From the NCBI RefSeq assembly GCF_030227225.1, contig NZ_JASPHQ010000001.1:304100-368099 (forward strand): DNA of 64,000 nt. The letters are read 5' to 3'. A program made the translations under genes and the position numbers. Below the pieces are notes generated by a model. It saw nothing but the letters and a program-made list of their open reading frames with translations, searched no databases and was not told the DNA's origin. The DNA comes from Corynebacterium rhinophilum (lineage in GTDB: Bacteria; Actinomycetota; Actinomycetes; Mycobacteriales; Mycobacteriaceae). Within the stretch, counting starts at the first letter, position 1; each line of letters opens with the position of its first letter. Below, one piece after another: positions 2 through 26,164 of the stretch.

Positions 2-2188
2 GCCAAGCGCGACGCCGAGATGATGGGTCGTGTGCACCGCTGGTTGGGCCTTTCCGTGGGCGTAATCTTGGCAGAAATGCGCCCGCAAGAGCGCAAGGAA
101 GCCTATGACTGCGACATCACCTACGGCACCAATAATGAGCTGGGCTTTGATTACCTACGCGATAACATGGTGCGCACCCTTAATGATGTAGTTCAGCGCG
201 GACACAATTTCTGCATCGTGGATGAGGTGGACTCGATTCTTATCGATGAAGCCCGTACCCCACTCATCATCTCCGGCCCGGTTGATGGCTCCTCCCAGTT
301 CTACGGCGTCTTTGCCCAGCTGGCGCCGCGCATGCGCGAGGGCATCCACTACGAAGTGGACCACAAAAAGCGCACCATCGGCGTCTTGGAAGAGGGCGTG
401 GAATACGTCGAAGATCAGCTCGGCATTGATAACCTCTACGCGCCGGAGCACTCCCAGTTGGTTTCCTACCTCAATAACGCGTTGAAGGCCAAGGAGCTCT
501 TTACCCGCGATAAGGACTACATCGTTCGCAACGGCGAAGTGATGATCGTGGATGGCTTTACCGGCCGCGTTTTGGCAGGACGTCGCTATAACGAAGGCAT
601 GCACCAGGCCATTGAGGCCAAGGAGCAGGTGGAGATCAAAAACGAAAACCAGACGCTGGCGACGGTTACCCTTCAGAACTTCTTCCGTCTCTATGAAAAA
701 ATTTCCGGCATGACCGGTACCGCGGAAACGGAAGCCGCGGAGCTGCATTCCATCTATGGGCTGGATGTGGTTCCTATTCCTACCAATAAGCCGAACCAGC
801 GCACCGACCACTCGGACCGCATTTACAAGACGCAAGAGGCAAAATTTGCCGCGGTGGTTGATGATATTGCAGAGCACGTTGAAAACGGCCAGCCGGTCTT
901 GGTTGGTACCACCTCTGTGGAGCGCTCCGAATACTTGTCGCAGTTGCTTAGCAAGCGCGGCGTGCAGCACAACGTGCTCAACGCCAAGCACCACGAAGAA
1001 GAGGGCCAGATCATTGCCCGTGCGGGCCGCCCCGGCACCGTGACCGTGGCAACCAACATGGCCGGTCGTGGTACCGATATCGTGCTCGGCGGTAACCCGG
1101 AAGTCATTCTCGATGAGAAGCTGCGCGAACGCGGCCTCGACCCCTTTGAGGATGAGGAAAAGTACCAGGAGGCCTGGGAAGCCGAGATCGACGGTGAGAA
1201 AGAGCGCTCGAAGCGCTTGGGTGATGAGGTGCGCGAATCGGGCGGGCTCTATGTCTTGGGCACCGAGCGCCACGAGTCTCGCCGCATTGATAACCAGCTG
1301 CGCGGCCGTACCGGCCGTCAGGGTGACCCGGGCGAGACCCGCTTCTACCTGTCCATGCGCGATGAGTTGATGGTGCGGTTCGTCGGCCAGTCTATGGAGC
1401 ACATGATGAACCGCCTCAACGTGCCTGATGATGTCCCCATCGAGGCCAAGATGGTCTCGAACTCCATTAAGGGCGCCCAGGCGCAGGTGGAGAATCAAAA
1501 CTTCGAGATGCGCAAGAACGTGTTGAAGTACGATGAGGTGCTCAATGAGCAGCGCAAGGTGGTCTACTCCACGCGCTATTCCATCCTCGATGCCGATGAC
1601 ATCAAGGACGATATCCGCACCATGATCGATGACACGGTCTCTGCCTACGTCGCGGGTGCTACCGCCACCGGTTATGTCGAAGACTGGAACCTCGAGGAAC
1701 TCTGGAACGCCCTTGAGGCGCTCTACGGCCCCACGATGTCCCCGGAGGAACTCGTGGAAGGCTCCGAGTACGGTTCCCCAGGCGAGCTCACTGCGGAGCA
1801 GCTGCGCTATGCCCTCGTCACCGACGCGAACCAGGAGTACGACAAGCTGGAGGAAGCCGTTTCTGCCATCGGCGGCGACAAGCAGATGCGCAATACCGAG
1901 CGCATGGTGATTCTGCCGATTATTGACCAGAAGTGGCGCGAGCACCTCTATGAGATGGACTACCTCAAGGAGGGCATCGGCCTGCGCGCGATGGCGCAGC
2001 GCGACCCGCTGGTGGAATACCAGAAGGAGGGTGGCGATATGTTCAATGCCATGAATGAAGGCGTGAAGGAAGAAACCGTGCGCCAGTTGTTTATGCTGCG
2101 CAAGCAGTTCAAGCAGCAGGAAGAAAACCAAGAATCCGGCGGTGACTCGGGCTCTGGTCCTGCAGGCCAAGAAACCGTAGAGGCATAA
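2..2188 (+). CDS. secA: Preprotein translocase ATPase SecA (SecA1), 5'-truncated by window edge
   Basis: Motor ATPase that pushes unfolded preproteins through the SecYEG channel at the cytoplasmic membrane. The reading frame is open from base 2, so the N-terminus including Walker A lies outside the window. Visible family features are the [14 protein letters not shown] Walker B region, the preprotein cross-linking domain, the second nucleotide-binding fold with [12 protein letters not shown] and NMAGRGTDI, the [22 protein letters not shown] motif VI region, and the helical scaffold near the C-terminus. The tail is a short Gly/Ser/Glu-rich stretch without the Cys-rich zinc motif of many proteobacterial SecAs, as usual for actinobacterial SecA1. 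Being a full-length housekeeping type fits SecA1 better than accessory SecA2. In M. tuberculosis secA1 also lies some genes from aroA-rsgA, as I recall. Confidence 0.97.
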
Positions 2189-15066: not shown

Positions 15067-15855
15067 ATGCCGCTTCCCCCAGAGCATGTTTTAAGCGCCT
15101 TCCACGCAGAAACCGGTGCGACAGGGTCGCGCCGGGCCCAAGGCGATCAGCTGGGCCCAGTATGGGATAACGGCATCAAGGTGGGCGATGTGGTCTACTC
15201 CCAGGCCGGCCCCTTCGCGGCGTGGTCTGCCAAGGTGCGCGAAAAGCTCAGCGTACCGGGCGCGCGGGTATCGCGGCCGGTTCTCGCGAGCGACGGGCGC
15301 CATACCGCGGCCGGGTGGAAGGCGACGCAGTTCCTTCCCGGCGAGGTCACCGGGCGTATCGATGAAGCGGCGCAGACGGCCTTGCGCTTGGACGATGCCA
15401 TGGCTAATGCACCAGCACCTCCGGGTACGCACCGCGATGATGCCTTCGCCCGCGCGGAGCGCACCGCCTGGGCGGAGACGGGGGAGGCCTACGATAAGGC
15501 CGCGCTTGCCGGTGTCCCCATGGTCACCGCCCATACCGCCCTGCTGACCACCACGGTCTTTTATGGCGCGCACCCACCGGGAATCGTGGATCTCGTGCCG
15601 AGTCAATCCGCGCGCCCAGCCGGGTGGAGCGCTGCGCTCGTGATCGTGGATGGGTTGATCGCGCAAGTGGTAGATGATGATATCTGCCAGCGGTTTGGTC
15701 ACGTGCCGGGTATGCAGGAGCTTTTGCTGCGGGCTGTGTCCTACCGCCGGCATATCAATGATTTGAATCCGCGGTCACGCTCGAATTTGCGTTCTAATAT
15801 TGAGCGGGTGGAACAGTTTCTTGTGTCTAGGGCATCTGCGATACTGGGGCGGTGA
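15067..15855 (+). CDS. TIGR02569-family conserved actinobacterial protein
   Basis: 262 residues, beginning MPLPPEHVLSAFHAETG; the family is actinobacterial and of unknown function, with distant similarity to aminoglycoside/choline-kinase-like folds. GRHTAAGWKATQFLPGEVTGRIDE and the later AALVIVDGLIAQVVDDDICQRFGH are its conserved blocks. AAGGAG ten bases before ATG is the ribosome-binding site. Its end overlaps the GTG start of adnA by four bases, so it is translationally coupled with adnAB; a role with the AdnAB machine or with DNA damage is inference from this coupling. Confidence 0.75.
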   Translation: MPLPPEHVLSAFHAETGATGSRRAQGDQLGPVWDNGIKVGDVVYSQAGPFAAWSAKVREKLSVPGARVSRPVLASDGRHTAAGWKATQFLPGEVTGRIDEAAQTALRLDDAMANAPAPPGTHRDDAFARAERTAWAETGEAYDKAALAGVPMVTAHTALLTTTVFYGAHPPGIVDLVPSQSARPAGWSAALVIVDGLIAQVVDDDICQRFGHVPGMQELLLRAVSYRRHINDLNPRSRSNLRSNIERVEQFLVSRASAILGR

Positions 15856-18800
15856 CTTACAATCCCCATTCCACCGCCCGCGCGGGAGTGGTCCTACCGC
15901 CGTCGCCAGAGGTACGACTCATCGCCCGCACCCCGTCCGCACACGCTCGTTCCTGGCCCGTTGAGCTGCCGGAAACCGGTACCTGGAAGGTAACCGGCAC
16001 CGCCGGAACCGGCGTATCCAGTTTTCTTATCGATACCGTCATTCATGCCCTCGACCGCGCCCAGGAGACGGGGGCAGATCCCTCCGGCATCCTCGTTGTT
16101 GCCGCCTCCAAGGAATCCGGCGCCCGCCTGCGCCGTGAGCTTTCAGAGCGCCTCGAAGATTATGCGGCGCAATCCTCCATGGTCCGCTCCATCCACTCCT
16201 TGGCCTTTGCCCTCCTGCGCAGTGCAAGCGACGAGGAATTGCGCCTTATCACCGGCGCGGAACAAGATGCCGTTATCCGGGAATTGCTCGAAGGCCACGC
16301 TGAATCCGGCCACGGCGAATGGCCGGAGGAAGTTCGCCCCGCCCTAGAGTATGTAGGCTTTGCCCGCCAATTGCGCGATTTTCTTTTGCGCTCCATCGAA
16401 CGTGGCTTAAGCCCCGCGGATTTGGAGAGCCTCGGGGCTAAGTACGGCCGTGGAATGTGGGTTGCCGCCGGTATGTTCCTGCGCGAATACGAACGCGTCC
16501 AAGCACTTTCCGGTGCGCATTCTTATTCCGCGGCCGAGCTAGTCAACCAAGTCTTGCTGCGCCCAGAACTTACGAATTCACACCCGTGGCACACCATCGT
16601 GGTTGATGACGCCCAGCTATTGGATCCCACCGCGGGCAAGCTCATCTCCCGCTTGGCCCCCGATGCACAATTGCTGGTCATCGGCGGTGATGCGGACCAA
16701 TCCGTCTTTGCCTTCCGCGGTGCTAATTCGCAATTCCTTGAAGAATTTCCCGCGGAACACTCCGTGGAGCTTTCGCAGCCGCACCGCAACGGATCCCCGG
16801 CCTGCGTTTCCATCGTGGATTCTGAGGGCCGCCTGCGCGATGTGGTGGCCGATACCGTGCGTCGCCGCCATTTGGACGATGGCGTGCAGTGGCGCGATAT
16901 CGCCGTCATCGTCCGCTCGACGGCGGATATAGGCCAGATGCGCCGCACCTTGCTGGCCGCCGGCGTACCCGTACACATCAGCCCGACCGACGTGATTTTG
17001 GCAGAACAACGCCTAGTATCTGCCATGCTCCTCGCCCTGCGCGCCTTGGAAGAAGACCTCAGCAATGTGGAGCTCGAGGAATTGCTGACCGGTCCAGTGG
17101 GAGGGGCGGATCCCGTCACCCTGCGCCGCCTGATTCGCGGTCTGCGCCGGTGGGCGCCCGATGCGCGCGGCATGGATAGCCTGCGCGAGCTCTTGCAGGG
17201 CGAGCTGCCGGACTTCAATGGCCAACTCACCGAACGCGAATTTTCCATCCTAGAGCGCGTGCGCGCAGTACTTTCCGCGGGCAGGCAGGCCGTGCAAGCC
17301 CAGGCTTCTGTGGAAGAAATCCTGTGGGAGGTATGGAGCGCTACCGAGCTGGATATGCGCCTGCAGGCATCCGCCTTGCGCGGCGGCGCCACCGGCTCGC
17401 AGGCGGATCGTGACCTCGATGCCATGATGGCGCTTTTTGATGCTGCCGGTGATTACTCCGAGCGCCGACCCGGCTCCTCGCTGCAGTCCTTTTTAACTCA
17501 CATCACCGAACAAGAACTGCCCACCGGCGTGCGCGACCGCCGTACCGCCATCCCGCAGGCCGTGGAGATCATCACCGCCCACGGCGCCGTCGGCCGCGAA
17601 TGGGATACCGTCATCGTCGTAGGAGCACAAGAAGGCGCGTGGCCCTCGCTGGGGGAGACCGGGTCCATTTTTGGCCAAGAAGATCTCATCGATCTCCTGG
17701 ACCGCGATATTGAGCCTGATACCCCTGTTAGCCACATTGCCTCCCGTCTGGCCGAAGAGCGCCGGCTCTTCCACGTCGCCACCACGCGCCACCGGAACCG
17801 GTTACTCATCGCTGCGGTGGAAAATCCCAACGAGGATGCCTTTGCAGAACCTTCCCGCTTCATCGCGGAATTTACCGGGCGCGGGGTAGATGTGCCCGGG
17901 ACAATGGCGCGCCGGGAAGCCAGCCGCGCCTTGCGCGCCACCCAATTCCCCCGCGAGCTGGGCTTGGACGTTCCCGAGCCGGCACCGGTGTCCCTGCGCG
18001 ATGGACTCGAGGTCGATCCCCTCGACGTGGCGGTACTGTCCGTTCCTTCCTTTGTGGCGCAATTGCGCCGCGTGGTCACGAATCCAGATTCTGGCGAGGC
18101 GGAGCGGCGCCAAGCGGCCCGGCAGCTGGCGCGCTTAGCGCAGGCGGAAATCCCAGGCGCCCATCCAGACCAGTGGTTTTCCGCGCGCTCTGTGGCATCG
18201 CATACGCAGCTGCGCGGTAGCAAGAGCCTATCGCCATCCCGGGTCGAAGCCCTGCTCAACTGCCCGCTCAAGGCGATTGTGGGAAACTTGGCCGAAGATT
18301 CCAGCGGCGCCGAGCACCTTTTGCGCGGCACCATGGCACACGCCTTCTTGGAGGCCATCGGCCGCGGCATGGATGCGGAAAAGGCCCGCCTGCTCGTCAT
18401 GGAAGCCTATGAGCTCATCCTGGATGTTCCGCAGTGGCAACTACAGAGCAAGTTGGAAGAATTCTCCCGCCTGCTGGAGCGCACGCAGCAATGGGCACAG
18501 CAATCCGAGGTCAAAAATGAACTCGCCGGGGTAGAAGTACCCGTCTACGTCGAGGTCGCCCCGGATATCCGGGTTGGCGGCTTCATGGACCGCTTGATGC
18601 AGGATGGAGACGGAAATTACCTGGTCGTGGATCTCAAGACCGGTAAATCTGCAGCGACGCAGGCAGAGGCGGAAGAAAACCGCCAGCTAATGACCTACCA
18701 ATTGGCCTTGTCCCGGGGAAGCTTTGACGGGCAGCGCGTGCGCGATGGCGAAGGGATGCCGCGCGCAGGCGGAGTTCTTGTCTATCCCGGAAAAGATTCC

Positions 18801-18995
18801 AGCAAAATCACCACGCGCACACAAAGCCAGCTCACCGCAGAGGCGCTGGAAGAATTTTCCGCACTTTTGCCACCACTGGCAGCGGAACTGCGTGGTCCGC
18901 AACTTACCGCGCGCACCAATAAAGATTGCGATAAGTGCCCCATTCGTACCATCTGCCCGGTGCAGGAGGAAGGAAAGATGACCATCCATGCCTAA
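15852..18995 (+). CDS. adnA: AdnA subunit of AdnAB helicase-nuclease
   Basis: 1047-residue UvrD-like plus PD-(D/E)xK protein, partner of AdnB in resection of DNA double-strand breaks. The N-terminal motor is degenerate: the Walker A position reads GTAGTGVSS (residues 49-57) with Val55 (codon 16014-16016) where the catalytic Lys should be, and motif II is VVDDAQLLD, with Asp in place of the usual Glu. Motif III (GGDADQSVFAFRGAN) and motif VI (RRLFHVATTRHRN) are kept. The C-terminal nuclease has DLKTGK (Asp927, Lys929) and an iron-sulfur cage of Cys804 and Cys1026, Cys1029, Cys1035. Starts at GTG overlapping the TIGR02569 gene and overlaps adnB by 8 bp. Confidence 0.93.
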   Translation: MTYNPHSTARAGVVLPPSPEVRLIARTPSAHARSWPVELPETGTWKVTGTAGTGVSSFLIDTVIHALDRAQETGADPSGILVVAASKESGARLRRELSERLEDYAAQSSMVRSIHSLAFALLRSASDEELRLITGAEQDAVIRELLEGHAESGHGEWPEEVRPALEYVGFARQLRDFLLRSIERGLSPADLESLGAKYGRGMWVAAGMFLREYERVQALSGAHSYSAAELVNQVLLRPELTNSHPWHTIVVDDAQLLDPTAGKLISRLAPDAQLLVIGGDADQSVFAFRGANSQFLEEFPAEHSVELSQPHRNGSPACVSIVDSEGRLRDVVADTVRRRHLDDGVQWRDIAVIVRSTADIGQMRRTLLAAGVPVHISPTDVILAEQRLVSAMLLALRALEEDLSNVELEELLTGPVGGADPVTLRRLIRGLRRWAPDARGMDSLRELLQGELPDFNGQLTEREFSILERVRAVLSAGRQAVQAQASVEEILWEVWSATELDMRLQASALRGGATGSQADRDLDAMMALFDAAGDYSERRPGSSLQSFLTHITEQELPTGVRDRRTAIPQAVEIITAHGAVGREWDTVIVVGAQEGAWPSLGETGSIFGQEDLIDLLDRDIEPDTPVSHIASRLAEERRLFHVATTRHRNRLLIAAVENPNEDAFAEPSRFIAEFTGRGVDVPGTMARREASRALRATQFPRELGLDVPEPAPVSLRDGLEVDPLDVAVLSVPSFVAQLRRVVTNPDSGEAERRQAARQLARLAQAEIPGAHPDQWFSARSVASHTQLRGSKSLSPSRVEALLNCPLKAIVGNLAEDSSGAEHLLRGTMAHAFLEAIGRGMDAEKARLLVMEAYELILDVPQWQLQSKLEEFSRLLERTQQWAQQSEVKNELAGVEVPVYVEVAPDIRVGGFMDRLMQDGDGNYLVVDLKTGKSAATQAEAEENRQLMTYQLALSRGSFDGQRVRDGEGMPRAGGVLVYPGKDSSKITTRTQSQLTAEALEEFSALLPPLAAELRGPQLTARTNKDCDKCPIRTICPVQEEGKMTIHA

Positions 18996-21900
18996 GCAGA
19001 ATTTTTCCCCGGAAGAAATAGCCCAAGCACTGGGCAAGGATTACCCACCTACTGAGGAACAAGCCCACGTCATCGAGGGTCCTTTTGGCCCCAAGCTCGT
19101 GGTGGCCGGCGCGGGTGCAGGTAAGACGGAAACCATGGCCTCCCGCGTGGTCTATTTGGTGGCCAATGGCTACGTGCGCCCAGAAGAAGTACTGGGGCTA
19201 ACCTTTACGCGCAAGGCGGCCCAGCAACTAGAACAGCGCATTCGCCGCCAACTGATTCAGCTGCGCGATTCCGGCCTCATCGTCCCCGGTAGCCCTGCCG
19301 CAGAGGCGCTTAACAATATCGCACCCACCGTGGCCACCTATGACTCGTATGCCGGCGAGCTCGTGCGCGAATACGGCCTTTTGGTCCCGGTCGAGCCCTC
19401 GGCGCGAATTATCACGGAGGCGGAGCGCTTTGCCATTGCCTATGACGTGGTGAAAAATTACGGCGGTAAATTATCGGATGAAAAGACCTTGGGTTCCATC
19501 ACGGAAACCCTGCTCAAGATCACTTCCGATATGGACAATTCCTTGAAGGATCCGGATGATATTGCCGAGTTCGCACGGGATTTCCGCGCTGATATTGACA
19601 ACCTGGAAAAGGCGCCGAGGACGAAGGGCGAGTATTCCAAGAAACTGCAGGACCACATCAATGTCCAGGATCTGCGCGTGCAGTACGTGCCATTGATCGA
19701 GGAACTCAAGCGCGCGCAGGCAGAACAGCAGGTCATCACTTTTGGCGAGCAGATGTCTGTGGCAGCGCGCCTCGCGCAATCGCACCCAGCGGTGGGCAAG
19801 CAACAGGCGCAGCGCTACCGCGTGGTCATGCTGGATGAATATCAGGACACGTCTTATGCCCAGCGAGTATTATTGCGCAGCCTTTTTGGCGGGGAGCAGA
19901 AAGACATTTCCGTGACAGCGGTGGGCGATCCCATGCAGGCCATCTATGGCTGGCGTGGGGCTACCTCAGAAAACCTCACCGCATTCGTGGAGGATTTCCC
20001 GCAAGCAGATGGCGCCCCTGCTCCCAAGGATCAGCTGACTACCTCGTGGCGCAACCCGTCGGGTGCCTTGGAGCTGGCTAACTCGGTGGCGGCCGGGGCC
20101 TTTGCGGGCGGCCCGCGCCCCGTCGATGAGCTGCATGCGGCCCCGCACAAGGGAGAAGGCGAGATTGAGCTGGGCTATTTCGCCAGCGAGGACGAGGAAC
20201 ACGATTTTATTGCCCAGAAAGTAAGGCAGCAGTGGGAAGCGCGCGAGGGAGATGGTTTTCGCGCAGCGGTATTGGTGCGCACCAACCGGCAAACCGCAGC
20301 CATTGCAGCTGCCCTGGATGCCGTCGATGTGCCCAATGAAATCAATGGTCTAGGTGGATTGCTGTGGCAACCGGAAATCCAGGACCTCGTAGCGCTGGCA
20401 ACCATGTTGGTGCGGCCGGAAGATGCTCAAGCGGCCCTCCGCATTTTCGCCGGGCCCATTTGCGGGCTGGGCATGGGCGATATCCAAGCCCTTGCCGCGC
20501 GGCAAAACAACTTGGCGGGGGCGAAGCAAGAGCGCCTGCAATGGGAAGAGGGCATGGATCCAGAGGAGTATCTGCGCGCCCAATTGGCGCAGCTTACGGC
20601 CGAGGGCCCAGATCAGACGGTGGGGCTTGCCGATGCCCTGGCAGACCTCGGCGAGCGCGATCGCTATACTCCGGAGGGCTTAGCGCGCATGGAAGAGGTA
20701 TCTGCCAAGCTGCGCTACCTGCGCACTTACTCGCTGTCCAAGCCTTTAAGCGATCTCTTCGCTGACATCGAGGCCATCTTCAATATCCGTACCGAGGTTC
20801 TTGCCCGCGGCAGCGCCGGGGGAGCCACCCACCTGGATAAATTCGCCGATATCGTCGCCGGATTCCATGGGGATTCCCTGTATGCGCTCCTAGATTATTT
20901 GGAGCTCGCTCGCGAACATGAAGATGGCCTTGGGCTTGGGGAAGTTCCTGCTTCCACGGATCGCGTACAAATCATGACCGTGCATAAAGCCAAGGGCCTG
21001 GAGTGGGAGCACGTCTATGTCGTGCGCGCGGATTCTTCAAGCTATAAGGCACAGGCAGAGACCTTTTTGTCCAAGATTGAAAAGGTACCCGGTGAAGATG
21101 ACTACATTGAGGTATCACCAGATGCGGTCACTCGCTCCGAATTCGAAAAGGCCTGCAAGGCATTCTTGGATGATGACCGCGCGCATAATGCGGAGGAAGC
21201 GGCTCGCCTGTTTTATGTGGCCTTGACCAGAACCGAGTCCACGTTGACTGTTACCGGCTCCGGTACTAATAACCGGTCGGGCAAGGCCAAGAAGGGCCCG
21301 TATGAGTACCTCGAAAGGCTAAAAGAATCTTTCCCCCAGTACGTGGGGGAGTGGACTGTGCCCGAAGAGCCGGTGGAAACGTCGGCTAATGCGGCAGAAA
21401 GCGGGCTCTTCCCCGCCCTTGAAGCCGATCCGGATTCCCTGGCTGGCGCGGATGCGGTGTTAGCGGCCATGGAGGACCTTCCTGAGTTAAGCCACGGCGA
21501 GACCTTCGAGTTGTGGGAACAGGATGCGGGCGCGCTCATTGAGGAATACAAGTCTCTGCAACAACCGGTAGTGGATGTGGAACTTCCCAGCGAGCTTACC
21601 GCCTCTGACATGGTGGCCTTGGGCAGTGATCCGCTACAGTTTGCGCGCCGGCAACGCCGCCCGGTGCCGTTTAAGCCCAATTCTTATGCCAAGCGGGGCA
21701 CCGCCTTCCACGCATGGCTGGAAGAGCGCTTTGGCAGCCCCGCGCTGCTAGGAGAAGAGGAATTGCCGGGCATCGATGAGCCGGAGGACTTCGACCTGGA
21801 AGAACTCAAGGAATCCTTCCTGAACTCCGAATGGGCGGAGCGCCAGCCGGACTTTGTGGAGGCGCCGTTCGAAATCACCATCGGCAGCGCTGTGGTGCGC

Positions 21901-22167
21901 GGGCGAATGGATGCCGTCTTCCGCTTGGCAGATGGCGCGTGGATGGTGGTGGACTGGAAGACTGGCCGGCCACCGAAGGGGGCGGCTATGGAAGCGGCGA
22001 AGATCCAGTTGGCGGTCTATGCCGAAGCCTGGCGGCGCATCCACGGCGGCGATAAAATCCGCGCCGCTTTCCATTACGTTCACGATGGTTATACTTTTGA
22101 GCCAGATACTTTAGCCCAAGGTGAGGAGCTGCGTAGCCTGCTTGAATCGTCAGTAGCAGGCCACTAG
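18988..22167 (+). CDS. adnB: AdnB subunit of AdnAB helicase-nuclease
   Basis: 1059-residue UvrD-family motor with C-terminal nuclease, expected to be the main translocase of AdnAB. The ATPase is intact: VVAGAGAGKTETMASR (Lys46), Ia LTFTRKAAQQLEQRI, II MLDEYQDTSYAQ, III GDPMQAIYGWRGA, IV SWRNPSGA, V MTVHKAKGLEWEHVYV and VI ARLFYVALTRTES. The nuclease domain near residues 950-1000 has RGRMDAVFRLADGAWMVVDWKTGRPP. Unlike AdnA, no four-cysteine cage is evident. ATG overlaps adnA by 8 bp. The contrast between this intact motor and the degenerate AdnA motor suggests a one-engine complex. Confidence 0.94.
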   Translation: MPKQNFSPEEIAQALGKDYPPTEEQAHVIEGPFGPKLVVAGAGAGKTETMASRVVYLVANGYVRPEEVLGLTFTRKAAQQLEQRIRRQLIQLRDSGLIVPGSPAAEALNNIAPTVATYDSYAGELVREYGLLVPVEPSARIITEAERFAIAYDVVKNYGGKLSDEKTLGSITETLLKITSDMDNSLKDPDDIAEFARDFRADIDNLEKAPRTKGEYSKKLQDHINVQDLRVQYVPLIEELKRAQAEQQVITFGEQMSVAARLAQSHPAVGKQQAQRYRVVMLDEYQDTSYAQRVLLRSLFGGEQKDISVTAVGDPMQAIYGWRGATSENLTAFVEDFPQADGAPAPKDQLTTSWRNPSGALELANSVAAGAFAGGPRPVDELHAAPHKGEGEIELGYFASEDEEHDFIAQKVRQQWEAREGDGFRAAVLVRTNRQTAAIAAALDAVDVPNEINGLGGLLWQPEIQDLVALATMLVRPEDAQAALRIFAGPICGLGMGDIQALAARQNNLAGAKQERLQWEEGMDPEEYLRAQLAQLTAEGPDQTVGLADALADLGERDRYTPEGLARMEEVSAKLRYLRTYSLSKPLSDLFADIEAIFNIRTEVLARGSAGGATHLDKFADIVAGFHGDSLYALLDYLELAREHEDGLGLGEVPASTDRVQIMTVHKAKGLEWEHVYVVRADSSSYKAQAETFLSKIEKVPGEDDYIEVSPDAVTRSEFEKACKAFLDDDRAHNAEEAARLFYVALTRTESTLTVTGSGTNNRSGKAKKGPYEYLERLKESFPQYVGEWTVPEEPVETSANAAESGLFPALEADPDSLAGADAVLAAMEDLPELSHGETFELWEQDAGALIEEYKSLQQPVVDVELPSELTASDMVALGSDPLQFARRQRRPVPFKPNSYAKRGTAFHAWLEERFGSPALLGEEELPGIDEPEDFDLEELKESFLNSEWAERQPDFVEAPFEITIGSAVVRGRMDAVFRLADGAWMVVDWKTGRPPKGAAMEAAKIQLAVYAEAWRRIHGGDKIRAAFHYVHDGYTFEPDTLAQGEELRSLLESSVAGH

Positions 22168-22266: not shown

Positions 22267-23385
22267 GTGGCCAGAAAACGTGCGAAGGTGTTCAAAGGGC
22301 GTATTAAACAGCGCTTTTTGCCCCAAGTCGAGTTGTCCTCGCAACCTGATCACGCGCTCCTTGATGTCATCACTGTGCCCAAGGATCAAAATGCCAGCCC
22401 GTGGCGCCAGTTGGCCAAACGCGCGCTGTGGGCATTTGGCATACTCATCTTCGTCACCGTCGTGGTGTACTTGGACGGCGAGGGCTATAGCGAGGACATG
22501 TCGCTTTTGGATTCCTCCTACTATGCCGCCGTCACGCTGACCACAGTGGGGTATGGCGATATCGTTCCCGTTACGGAGCAATCGCGGTTTATTAACCTCG
22601 TACTTATCACCCCGGCCCGCCTCGTCTTCCTTGTGCTGTTGGTTGGTGCGACGCTCTCCGTGCTGACGGACAAGGCCCGCCGCACCTTTGAAATCCAGAA
22701 CTGGAGAAAACAATTGCGTAACCACACCGTCGTTATTGGCTATGGAACGAAGGGCGCCGGGGCAGTCGCCGCGCTCTTGGCAGATGACGTACCCACCTCC
22801 CAGATCGTGGTCATCGATAATAACCGCGCGTCGCTGGCGCATGCGGAGCACCACGGCCTGGTCACCATCTTTGGTTCGGGAACCAAGCAGGACGTGCTTA
22901 AGGTGGCCGGGGTGGAGCACGCGAGCTCCATAGTGGTCACCCCGTCCTCGGACGATACCGCGGTGCTGTGCTGCCTATCGGTGCGCGAGCTTGCCCCCAA
23001 GGCCAAGATTGTGGCCTCGGTGCGCGAGTCCGAAAACCGCCACCTTCTGCGCCAATCTGGTGCCGATTCCGTGGTGACGTCCGCAGAGACCGCCGGCCGC
23101 CTGCTGGGGCTTGCCACCGTGACCCCCACCGTGGTGGAAATGATGGAAGACCTGCTTTCTCCTAATGAGGGCTTTTCGGTATCTGAGCGCGCCGTGCGCG
23201 AGTTCGAGGTCGGGTCCAACCCGCGCCACCTGGCGGATATCGTGCTCGCGGTGCTGCGCAATAACGAACTCCACCGCGTCGATACTGCTGATGCCTCCGC
23301 ACTGAAACCGGGCGACCGCCTGCTGTATATCAAGCACGATCTGGAACAACCCGTGGAAGTGCAAGATGATGACGAGGAGGATTAA
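22267..23385 (+). CDS. cglK: Potassium channel with RCK domain, CglK type
   Basis: 372-residue two-helix K+ channel. TM1 is about residues 52-70, followed by the pore with selectivity filter TVGYGD and TM2 (LVFLVLLVGATLSVL); the cytoplasmic RCK/TrkA-N domain begins VVIGYGTKGAGAVAALL with the NAD-binding Rossmann pattern. It corresponds to C. glutamicum CglK, needed for pH homeostasis at low pH, where an independently translated RCK domain is reported. An in-frame GTG at 22660 (residue 132) just before the RCK domain could serve this here, though its ribosome-binding site is weak. Start is GTG 22267 with no strong upstream signal. Followed at once by nudC. Confidence 0.9.
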   Translation: MARKRAKVFKGRIKQRFLPQVELSSQPDHALLDVITVPKDQNASPWRQLAKRALWAFGILIFVTVVVYLDGEGYSEDMSLLDSSYYAAVTLTTVGYGDIVPVTEQSRFINLVLITPARLVFLVLLVGATLSVLTDKARRTFEIQNWRKQLRNHTVVIGYGTKGAGAVAALLADDVPTSQIVVIDNNRASLAHAEHHGLVTIFGSGTKQDVLKVAGVEHASSIVVTPSSDDTAVLCCLSVRELAPKAKIVASVRESENRHLLRQSGADSVVTSAETAGRLLGLATVTPTVVEMMEDLLSPNEGFSVSERAVREFEVGSNPRHLADIVLAVLRNNELHRVDTADASALKPGDRLLYIKHDLEQPVEVQDDDEED

Positions 23386-24117
23386 TTGTATTTGCCCGTA
23401 ACGCACACGGGACTAGTGCCCGCCACCGCGAGTGGGGACGCGGCGTTGGTGGAGGAATTGCCGGAAGGTGTGGGAACTCCGGAGATGGTGGACATCGGCA
23501 CGCTGCACGTTTTTGCCTGCCCGGAAGCAATTGCACGGGGGATAGGGCAGCTGCAACCTGCGACCTTTTTCGCCGATAATTCCCTTATCATGCAGGCGAT
23601 TGCCTTGATCCGCAACAGGTTGGAGCAACGCTTCGATCCACGCACAGGCCAACCGTTGGACTATCCAACGCCGGGTATCGTTGGCCGCGATCCGCAGGAT
23701 TCGCGCCGCATGGTATTCCCGCGCTTGGACCCCGCGGTCATTGGCCTTATTGAGCTCAAGGGCGAGGAGAAGATTTTGCTGGCGCGCAATCGCGGGCGCA
23801 ATAACTTCTTTTCTTTGATTGCTGGATACGTGGAGCCGGGCGAGACCATTGAGGACGCCTTTGCCCGCGAAACCATGGAGGAAACTGGGCGGCGCATTGA
23901 GAATCTTCGTTACTGGGGATCCCAGCCGTGGCCGCCGAGTGGCTCGCTTATGCTGGGCTTTCACGCAGAGACATCGGATGTCCAGGCCACCTGCCATACT
24001 GATGGGGAACTGGAAGAAATTCGTTGGGTGACCCGCGCCGAGCTGCCTAAGCTTCCGCTGGCCACCGCGGGTTCTATCGCACACACGATGATTATGGAGT
24101 GGTATCACGGTGAGTAA
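23386..24117 (+). CDS. nudC: NAD(H) pyrophosphatase / mRNA decapping Nudix hydrolase NudC
   Basis: 243 residues. Hydrolyses NADH to NMNH and AMP, and in the family removes NAD caps from RNA. The Nudix box is GYVEPGETIEDAFARETMEE followed by TG (consensus G-x5-E-x7-REUxEExGU) and the family mark SQPWPPSGSLM follows. The zinc cysteines of E. coli NudC are absent, as in mycobacterial homologs I recall. The start is TTG 23386, directly after the cglK stop; the GACGAGGAGG sequence five bases upstream supports it. Overlaps uvrD2 by 8 bp. Confidence 0.9.
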   Translation: MYLPVTHTGLVPATASGDAALVEELPEGVGTPEMVDIGTLHVFACPEAIARGIGQLQPATFFADNSLIMQAIALIRNRLEQRFDPRTGQPLDYPTPGIVGRDPQDSRRMVFPRLDPAVIGLIELKGEEKILLARNRGRNNFFSLIAGYVEPGETIEDAFARETMEETGRRIENLRYWGSQPWPPSGSLMLGFHAETSDVQATCHTDGELEEIRWVTRAELPKLPLATAGSIAHTMIMEWYHGE

Positions 24118-26164
24118 GCCGGATTTGTCCCTGCTGGATGAGGATCAGCGCCGCGCGGCCACCGCCCCGCGCGGACCGGTGTGCATTTTGGCGGGCGCGG
24201 GCACCGGTAAGACCCGCACCATTACCTATCGCATCGCCAACATGGTGGATCAAGGGTTCGTAAACCCCCAGCGAGTTTTGGCCGTGACCTTTACCGCGCG
24301 TGCGGCGGGAGAAATGCGGGATCGCCTGCGCATGATGGGTGTTGCTGGCGTGCAGGCCCAAACCTTTCACGCGGCCGCGCGGCGGCAGCTGAAGTATTTC
24401 TGGCCGCAGGTCGCAGGCGATCTGCCATGGACGCTTTTGGATAATAAATTCCCGTTGGTAGCCCGCGCGGTGCGCTCGGTGGGGCTGGATAATTCCAAAG
24501 ACATGATCCGTGACGTGCTGGCGGAAATCGAATGGGCGAAATCCGCACTGGTCAGCGCGGAGGACTATGAGAGCGTCATCGCGGAAACGGATCGCACCGC
24601 CCCGGCTGATGCCGCCAAGGTGGCCGAGGCCTTCCGGCGTTACGAAAAGGCCAAAGCCACGCCGGATATGATGCATCTGGACTTCGATGACCTGCTCATG
24701 CACATCGCGGGCGCCATCGAAAACGTCCCAGCCATTGCGGAGACCTTCCGCGAGCAATACCGCACCTTCGTCGTTGACGAGTACCAGGACGTCACGCCCC
24801 TGCAGCAGCGCGTGCTGAACGCCTGGCTGGGTGATCGCGATGATCTCACCGTGGTGGGCGATGCCAACCAGACCATCTATTCCTTCAATGGCGCATCTCC
24901 GGAGTACCTGCTGAATTTTTCGCGCAGCTATCCGGACGGGACCATCGTCAAGCTGCAGCGCGACTATCGTTCCACGCCGCAGGTAACGGATTTGGCGAAC
25001 CGGGTCATCGGCAAGGCTACGGGGCGCGCGGCGGGCACCCGCTTGGAGCTGCAGGGCATGCGCGAGCCCGGGCCGGAGCCGACGTTCAAGGCCTACGAGT
25101 CCGAGGAAAATGAGGCGCAGGAGGTGGCTGGGCAGGTGCTGACACTGCTCAATCAGGGTGTGCCGGCTTCAGAAATTGCCATCTTGTACCGCATTAACGC
25201 CCAGTCGGAACAGTTCGAGCAGGCGCTTGCCGATGCCGGAGTGGTCTACCAAGTCCGCGGCGGTGAAGGTTTCTTCCGCCGCCCGGAGATTCTGGAGGCC
25301 ATTCGCGTGCTCATCGCCGCCACGCGCCGCGATGATTTGCCGGAGGACCCCGTGGCGATTGCGCGGGCCGCCTTCGTGGAGCTTGGGCTCAGCGCCACCG
25401 AACCGCAGGGTGCGCAGGCCCGCGAGCGGTGGCAATCGCTGAACGCGCTGGTGGGCTTGATCGAAAAGATCGTGGAATCCACCCCGGGTATCGATCTCAA
25501 TGGGGTGCTGGGTGAGCTGCGGCGCCGCTCCACCGATAAGCAAGCCCCCGCCATGGAGGGCGTGACCCTCGCTACGGTGCACGCGGCGAAGGGCTTGGAA
25601 TGGGACGCCGTCTTCCTCGTCGGGCTGAGCGAAAAACTCATGCCCATCAACCACGCCATTAAGGCGGGCGATGAGCAGATTGAGGAAGAACGCCGCCTGT
25701 TTTATGTAGGCATTACCCGCGCCCGCGAGCACCTGGCCCTGTCGTGGGCATTGGCGAAGACCGCCGGTTCGCGAGCCTCCCGGGAACGCACCCGGTTCCT
25801 CGACGGCATCGCGCCCGGCGTGGAATCTTCTGCAGGGAGTGGCCGCTCCCGCCGCCCGAAACGCTGCCGCGTATGCAGCGGGGTTTTAGAGACCCCGGCG
25901 GAAAAGGTCATTGGCCGGCATGAAGACTGTGAGGGCAATGGCGATGACGAGGTCTTTTCCGCCCTGCGCTCGTGGCGCGCGCAGGTGGCCCGTGAGGAAA
26001 AGGTTCCGGCCTATGTCATCTTTACGGATGCCACGCTGCAAGCCATCTCGGAAGAGCTGCCGGCAGATGAGGCGGAGCTGCTGTCCATTTCCGGAATAGG
26101 GCCCAATAAGTTGGAGCGCTACGGCGAGCAAATCCTGGAGGTCATTCGCTCTGTGCGGCTGTAG
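24110..26164 (+). CDS. uvrD2: UvrD2 DNA helicase with HRDC domain
   Basis: 684-residue SF1 helicase. Walker A ILAGAGTGKT (Lys34), Ia VTFTARAAGEMRDRL, II VVDEYQDVTPLQQ, III GDANQTIYSFNGA, V TVHAAKGLEWDAVFLVG and VI RRLFYVGITRAREHLAL are intact. A zinc-finger segment joins the motor to a C-terminal HRDC domain (last ~80 residues). Mycobacterial UvrD2 has a tetracysteine here; in this protein it reads CRVC then HEDC, so one ligand is His rather than Cys. GTG start at 24110 overlaps nudC. It is essential in mycobacteria. Ends 23 bp inside the convergent gene at 26142. Confidence 0.94.
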   Translation: MSKPDLSLLDEDQRRAATAPRGPVCILAGAGTGKTRTITYRIANMVDQGFVNPQRVLAVTFTARAAGEMRDRLRMMGVAGVQAQTFHAAARRQLKYFWPQVAGDLPWTLLDNKFPLVARAVRSVGLDNSKDMIRDVLAEIEWAKSALVSAEDYESVIAETDRTAPADAAKVAEAFRRYEKAKATPDMMHLDFDDLLMHIAGAIENVPAIAETFREQYRTFVVDEYQDVTPLQQRVLNAWLGDRDDLTVVGDANQTIYSFNGASPEYLLNFSRSYPDGTIVKLQRDYRSTPQVTDLANRVIGKATGRAAGTRLELQGMREPGPEPTFKAYESEENEAQEVAGQVLTLLNQGVPASEIAILYRINAQSEQFEQALADAGVVYQVRGGEGFFRRPEILEAIRVLIAATRRDDLPEDPVAIARAAFVELGLSATEPQGAQARERWQSLNALVGLIEKIVESTPGIDLNGVLGELRRRSTDKQAPAMEGVTLATVHAAKGLEWDAVFLVGLSEKLMPINHAIKAGDEQIEEERRLFYVGITRAREHLALSWALAKTAGSRASRERTRFLDGIAPGVESSAGSGRSRRPKRCRVCSGVLETPAEKVIGRHEDCEGNGDDEVFSALRSWRAQVAREEKVPAYVIFTDATLQAISEELPADEAELLSISGIGPNKLERYGEQILEVIRSVRL

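Follow-up and report, generated by a model that had tools for sequence, protein, structure and literature searches.

The bacterial machines that resect DNA breaks vary in motor number: RecBCD has two motors and AddAB has one, and AdnAB has a second motor-like subunit, AdnA. The ATP-binding subdomain of mycobacterial AdnA has recognizable Walker A and B motifs, and its hydrolysis of ATP has gone undetected, as stated in the excerpted text of a 2026 paper (PMC13309787) that cites Unciuleac and Shuman (2010) on this point, terms the N-terminal ATP-binding region of AdnA functionally enigmatic, and describes binding of dUTPase by the N-terminal 85 residues of M. tuberculosis AdnA. The Chi-binding proteins AddB and RecC are without most or all helicase motifs, and a second-site ATP in AddB modulates Chi recognition, according to the excerpt of PMC4824097, as of which the Chi response of AdnAB was unknown; the excerpt of PMC5030088 holds nothing further on AdnA. 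Among the titles of the matches listed from the open-licence literature, no paper on the motifs of corynebacterial AdnA was found.

The genes analyzed here lie in a stretch of 64,000 nucleotides (the window) of Corynebacterium rhinophilum, whose genome (G000) is a draft of 2.47 Mb in 92 contigs; their features are collected in Table 1. The nearest solved chains to the adnA product are AdnA of 7sjr, 6ppj, and 9np6 (phmmer, E ~1e-143), and those nearest to the adnB product are AdnB of 6ppu, 6ppr, and 7sjr. The subunits are thus orthologous to those of mycobacterial AdnAB (M. smegmatis; 6ppj, 6ppr, 6ppu, 7sjr, 9np6), with identical domain order: AdnA has an N-terminal UvrD-like domain and a C-terminal RecB-like nuclease domain (Pfam), AdnB has the same trio of Pfam domains (UvrD-helicase, UvrD_C, PDDEXK_1), and adnA lies directly upstream of adnB, which it overlaps. 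The window AdnA shares 99% identity with its counterpart in an uncultured Corynebacterium (L277) and 80% with the C. tuberculostearicum protein (L262).

Table 1. Features of the adnAB locus and of the genes that follow it, in window positions.
Feature	Residues	Positions	Strand	Remarks
adnA		15852..18995	+	intact ORF, 1047 aa
AdnA UvrD-like motor domain	~37-680		+	Pfam UvrD-helicase, UvrD_C
AdnA P-loop (motif I) GTAGTGVSS	49-57	15996..16022	+	glycines present, no Lys
AdnA codon 55, GTA (Val)	55	16014..16016	+	Lys in SF1 motors
AdnA motif II VVDDAQ	250-255	16599..16616	+	Asp253 replaces the catalytic Glu; common to mycobacteria
AdnA motif III GGDADQSVFAFRGA	278-291	16683..16724	+	kept
AdnA motif IV Arg312	312	16785..16787	+	kept
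AdnA motif V ITAHGAVGREWDTV	574-587	17571..17612	+	position 580 is Val, canonically Lys
AdnA motif VI EERRLFHVATTRHRNRL	635-651	17754..17804	+	arginine-finger position R646 kept
AdnA C-terminal PD-(D/E)XK nuclease	~790-1040		+	Pfam PDDEXK_1
AdnA C804	804	18261-18263	+	fourth Cys beside C1026, C1029, C1035
AdnA nuclease motif VVDLKTGK	925-932	18624..18647	+	D927 and K929 kept
AdnA C1026, C1029, C1035	1026, 1029, 1035	18927..18956	+	conservation counted in Lys-less sequences
adnB		18988..22167	+	SF1 motor complete, plus nuclease; shares 8 bases with the end of adnA
AdnB Walker A GAGAGKT	41-47	19108..19128	+	K46 kept
AdnB motif II DEYQD	283-287	19834..19848	+	
Ion-channel/TrkA_N gene, after adnB		22267-23385		
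NUDIX gene, next in order		23386-24117		
Third UvrD-type gene		24110-26164		HRDC domain; intact GAGTGKT and DEYQD

The motifs of both subunits are as an earlier note had read them from this DNA: every coordinate checked for the AdnA P-loop and its Val codon is right, motif II of AdnA does depart from DExxQ, and AdnB does keep its Walker A and motif II. Compared with the SF1A helicases UvrD, PcrA, and Rep, the window AdnA lacks the Walker A Lys (Val55 in its place), the Glu of motif II (Asp253), and the motif V Lys. Compared with M. smegmatis AdnAB the differences are smaller, in that the M. smegmatis AdnA likewise has a VDDAQ motif II and a partner AdnB with a full motor; its P-loop, GGPGTGKSS, retains a Lys and a Pro where the window AdnA has Val and Ala. 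The predicted fold of AdnA resembles the UvrD/PcrA, AdnA, and AddB structures, and an overall fold of the AddB/RecC kind is thereby predicted as well; unlike AddB and RecC, however, AdnA has not lost most or all of its helicase motifs but keeps most motif residues, with motifs III, IV, and VI largely retained, and in contrast to the second-site ATP of AddB an AdnA of this sequence would be without such binding. The cysteines C804, C1026, C1029, and C1035 fit what we take to be the four-Cys Fe-S pattern of AdnA/AddB type around the nuclease (a predicted cluster); all four are present in the window AdnA and conserved in AdnA sequences that lack the P-loop Lys.

The extent of the Lys loss was determined in a genus set of 201 genomes, sampled evenly from a larger collection, every one of which (201/201) has an AdnA match. 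Loci were fetched for 200 of the 201 (G113, whose contig begins inside the gene, was left out), and 197 AdnA sequences are readable at alignment column 55, with L037, L153, and L178 having no residue there. Matches to paralogues (L002, L003) and second pieces of genomes already counted (L232, L233) were dropped, and for L179 (G001) the upstream piece alone was used. At that locus a frameshift or an assembly error divides AdnA between open frames of 700 and 624 aa that overlap; in L187 (G138) the AdnA ORF has 682 residues, 365 fewer than in the window, and a natural deletion was considered and rejected there, the junction falling on the only N of the locus, which makes an assembly fault the probable cause. 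Because they probably duplicate members of the genus set, the 29 named sequences (28 Corynebacterium, plus L266 with the title Mycobacteriaceae bacterium) do not enter the group counts; L325 is likewise excluded, and the 51 sequences from other genera of the family comprise 21 named and 30 further loci, in which the same species may occur twice.

Column 55 is Val in 138 of the 197 sequences, Leu in 9, Thr in 2, Ile in 1, Lys in 43, and Arg in 4, so that 150 of 197 have neither Lys nor Arg in the P-loop (Lys-less below). The Lys-less codons are GTG (89), GTC (23), GTA (19), GTT (7), and CTG (4), and more rarely CTA (2), TTG (2), ACG (2), CTC (1), and ATT (1). The named sequences, L266 included, divide into 23 Lys-less and 6 with Lys; C. 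striatum, C. tuberculostearicum, C. silvaticum, and a metagenome genome titled C. glucuronolyticum are among the former, and C. jeikeium and C. glyciniphilum among the latter. Arg replaces the P-loop Lys in two lineages (L176; and L191, L192, L194). The change is not a single-strain one, because it recurs in a genome of the same species (G153, AdnA 99% identical) and in G105 and G006 (97-98%). A sequencing error or local mutation at codon 55, which alignment with other corynebacteria could have exposed, is ruled out by the 150 sequences and their several distinct codons; loss of the Lys is lineage-wide in the genus, and the proposal that corynebacteria as such had lost this catalytic residue has to be narrowed by the 43 sequences with Lys and 4 with Arg. 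The Fe-S cysteines, nearly always present in Lys-less sequences and in other families, are partly lost in Corynebacterium AdnA bearing Lys or Arg: column 1029 there reads C 30, S 7, T 7, I 1, N 1, and one gap, C1026 is Asp in 3, C804 is Tyr in 2, and C1035 is Ser in 2 and Gly in 2.

The change in motif II has a different and wider distribution. Asp253 is found in 51/51 sequences from other genera of the family, in 29/29 Pseudonocardiaceae, and in 47/47 Corynebacterium sequences with Lys or Arg, and the Lys-less sequences have Asp in 141/150, Glu in 6, and Asn in 3. In the six with Glu (L029, L030, L031, L033, L059, L107) motif II reads DEAQ, the canonical letter being back without a P-loop Lys. 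The motif V Lys is present in none of 275 readable Mycobacteriales sequences, and the P-loop Lys is kept in the same 51/51 and 29/29 that have Asp253. In AdnA at class level the P-loop Lys is present in 26/27, the motif II Glu in 24/27, and the motif V Lys in 24/27; orthology at this distance is backed by an AdnB match that starts within 400 bases of the AdnA end on the same strand in 20/20 class-level loci. In four of these 20 (L343, L349, L350, L360), which form a group with support 100, motif II has Asp and the Lys of motif V is missing; L349 has in addition Arg instead of the P-loop Lys. Across 66 representative sequences the Glu and the motif V Lys co-occur without exception (34 with both, 32 with neither), and the tree of these sequences, in which 9 class-level loci were swapped for longer fetches from the same genomes, requires two changes for the Glu and two for the motif V Lys; its class-level root is weak (support 44), and L357, a long branch carrying Glu, is placed on the Asp side of it.

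Since Asp253 is order-wide and class-level sequences mostly have Glu, loss of the Glu, as traced in these alignments, long predates Corynebacterium. Joint loss of both catalytic residues within Corynebacterium is thus ruled out, Asp253 being present in M. smegmatis and other Mycobacteriales as well, and the motif II change, which the earlier note had counted as part of a corynebacterial loss, does not belong to it. The same note had supposed that a lesser ATPase of mycobacterial AdnA was lost in corynebacteria; this loses its starting point in that, in the excerpt of PMC13309787, hydrolysis is undetected for the mycobacterial domain itself. In one genome of the comparison (G206, genus code g7, a single contig, 99% complete; L364, L368) AdnAB is seemingly absent: AdnA is represented only by an N-terminal match of 126 residues, in a reading frame that contains one TGA, and AdnB by no match above the level of a UvrD-like gene; both genes are present in G235, of the same genus.

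The Lys loss was placed on a main AdnA tree of 257 sequences from which column 55 was excluded. All 150 Lys-less sequences fall in one clade of 154 with support 100, and a smaller IQ-TREE tree concurs on this clade. The other four members are two unreadable sequences and two with Lys, L134 and L188, on long branches. Constraining L134 and L188 to lie outside carries a penalty of 43.9 log units (AU p = 0.033, with the long branches), and in the AdnB tree they sit at an unresolved spot within the same clade (support 85). Lys within the clade therefore means two regains or additional losses; the shortest account of the sequences is a single Lys loss and two regains, and the long branches allow more losses. 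The Lys of L134 and L188 is not the sign of a restored motor, because both proteins still lack the Glu of motif II and the Lys of motif V.

Few other residues changed with the Lys. When Lys-less sequences were compared with those bearing Lys or Arg (L134 and L188 excluded from the latter), only P51A and K55V of 931 AdnA columns differ at 90% or more; at 85%, as at 80%, P43G and N226S join them. Under a stricter filter column 55 is the sole difference at 85%; the figures of the plainer filter are those reported. Column 55 defines the groups, and the independent evidence comes only from P43G, P51A, and N226S, the first two of which lie within 12 residues of position 55. No Lys or Arg became newly fixed at 85% or more alongside the Lys loss in any of the 931 columns; R632, adjoining motif VI, differs at the 70% level. 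Within the Lys-less clade column 55 requires 6 parsimony changes over a tree length of 45.6, against a column median of 18.5 across residues 20-690; a quarter of motor columns change less, and the constancy of Val55, for which only Leu, Ile, and Thr are otherwise seen, resembles that of many other conserved valines of the motor domain.

Many other motor residues are retained in Lys-less sequences. Gly54 is present in 150/150, motif III has R289 in 150/150, D280 in 136/150, and Q283 in 138/150, and the motif IV Arg312 is found in 143/150 (3 gapped); R355 is present in 150/150, H577 in 147/147 readable, and R646 of motif VI in 146/150 (3 gapped, 1 Ser). The nuclease residues D927 and K929 are each present in 144/150 (5 gapped, 1 other). 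A dead site would not strictly require all the conservation seen in the arginine finger, motif III, and the motif IV Arg. Faster change in the pocket after the Lys loss was not seen (84/15568 versus 20/4195 steps, Fisher p = 0.72, a test of low power with only 20 events on the Lys side); a steady rate fits an earlier non-catalytic state and equally a still-working pocket. The pocket is not simply rotting, because six Lys-less sequences have Glu253.

AdnB shows no corresponding decay. K46 is present in 144/144 readable AdnB of genomes with a Lys-less AdnA and in 47/47 of those with Lys or Arg in AdnA, and the AdnB catalytic residues examined show zero variation in any readable sequence; motifs V and VI and the nuclease are readable only in 113 to 115 Lys-less and 47 Lys- or Arg-bearing Corynebacterium sequences and in no outgroup sequence, many loci ending earlier. 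Changes in AdnB that might compensate for the AdnA Lys were sought and set aside: L471A, Q508N, and E874D differ at 85% and one column at 90%, and no mechanism was found for them.

The computed residues with their distribution, the order in which the trees place the steps, and the intact residues of AdnB and the nuclease are, in our judgment, likely to reflect an AdnA motor that is a pseudo-motor decayed in two steps, leaving AdnB to drive AdnAB alone. The first step, no later than the base of the Mycobacteriales, would have turned the motif II Glu into Asp and at the same time removed the Lys of motif V; AdnA would probably have lost ATP hydrolysis then, with AdnB left as the only engine. The P-loop Lys was probably retained at that stage for nucleotide binding without hydrolysis, as is suggested by its being kept after the loss of the Glu and the motif V Lys. 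In the second step, inside Corynebacterium, the P-loop Lys would have changed to Val, most simply once and along with P51A, and a small aliphatic residue would have been held at position 55 since. Neither normal ATP binding nor hydrolysis would be expected of a Lys-less AdnA, and we infer for it a scaffold role: AdnB alone would unwind the break, and the AdnA motor fold would serve as a structural and DNA-channel element with a working nuclease and Fe-S region.

A simpler possibility, which seems to us rather improbable, is that the P-loop Lys, functionless once hydrolysis was lost, merely drifted away in Corynebacterium and that Val has no role. The prior absence of hydrolysis-related residues, the unchanged pocket rate, the Lys of L134 and L188 within the clade, and the somewhat looser D280 and Q283 of motif III in Lys-less sequences all comport with such erosion; yet K55 did not drift freely in the other Mycobacteriales, where it persists throughout despite the loss of the Glu, position 55 has changed so seldom and only to Leu, Ile, or Thr, and P51A changed alongside K55V. 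These same constraints could instead reflect a protein partner such as dUTPase, if the P-loop region of AdnA were a nucleotide-independent binding surface. This is unlikely in our estimation, although the smallest dUTPase-interacting AdnA fragment, the N-terminal 85 aa, includes the P-loop region (in the excerpt of PMC13309787) and P43G and P51A, two of the three columns other than 55 that pass the 80% threshold, lie close to position 55; the dUTPase contact is known from mycobacteria only, and such a surface is compatible with a two-step pseudo-motor rather than exclusive of it. Also doubtful is a bolder extension, in which Corynebacterium AdnA would have ended its passage from motor to a pseudo-helicase independent of nucleotide, converging on AddB and RecC: the pocket would be plugged by a selected aliphatic residue and the motor locked in one state, retained residues of the ssDNA track would read or gate DNA for AdnB, and the Lys-bearing relatives would represent an ATP-binding, non-hydrolyzing intermediate. 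That AdnA is still a second motor, binding or hydrolyzing ATP by means of a basic residue at another position, for which WNK kinases offer a precedent, is highly improbable: motifs III, IV (Arg), and VI (Arg) do remain conserved and R632 by motif VI does differ between the groups, but at the 85% level no basic residue was gained, and AdnA further lacks the Glu of motif II and the Lys of motif V.

A single-motor AdnAB, as the earlier note had proposed, is the natural reading, because AdnA lacks the Walker A Lys, the AdnB motor is full, and the Lys loss is lineage-wide; it is probably right for the window genome, and its cause is older and not special to Corynebacterium. The single-motor state probably predates the genus, because hydrolysis is undetected for the mycobacterial AdnA domain, and what the Lys-less lineage lost additionally is, judging from the P-loop, probably nucleotide binding. 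What is special to Corynebacterium is the second step, the loss of the P-loop Lys. The order of events would thus be that the catalytic Glu and the motif V Lys went together and the P-loop Lys later, in most Corynebacterium. The genus thereby offers a natural comparison between Lys-bearing and Lys-less AdnAB with identical AdnB catalytic residues, which makes directly testable whether nucleotide binding by AdnA has any importance.
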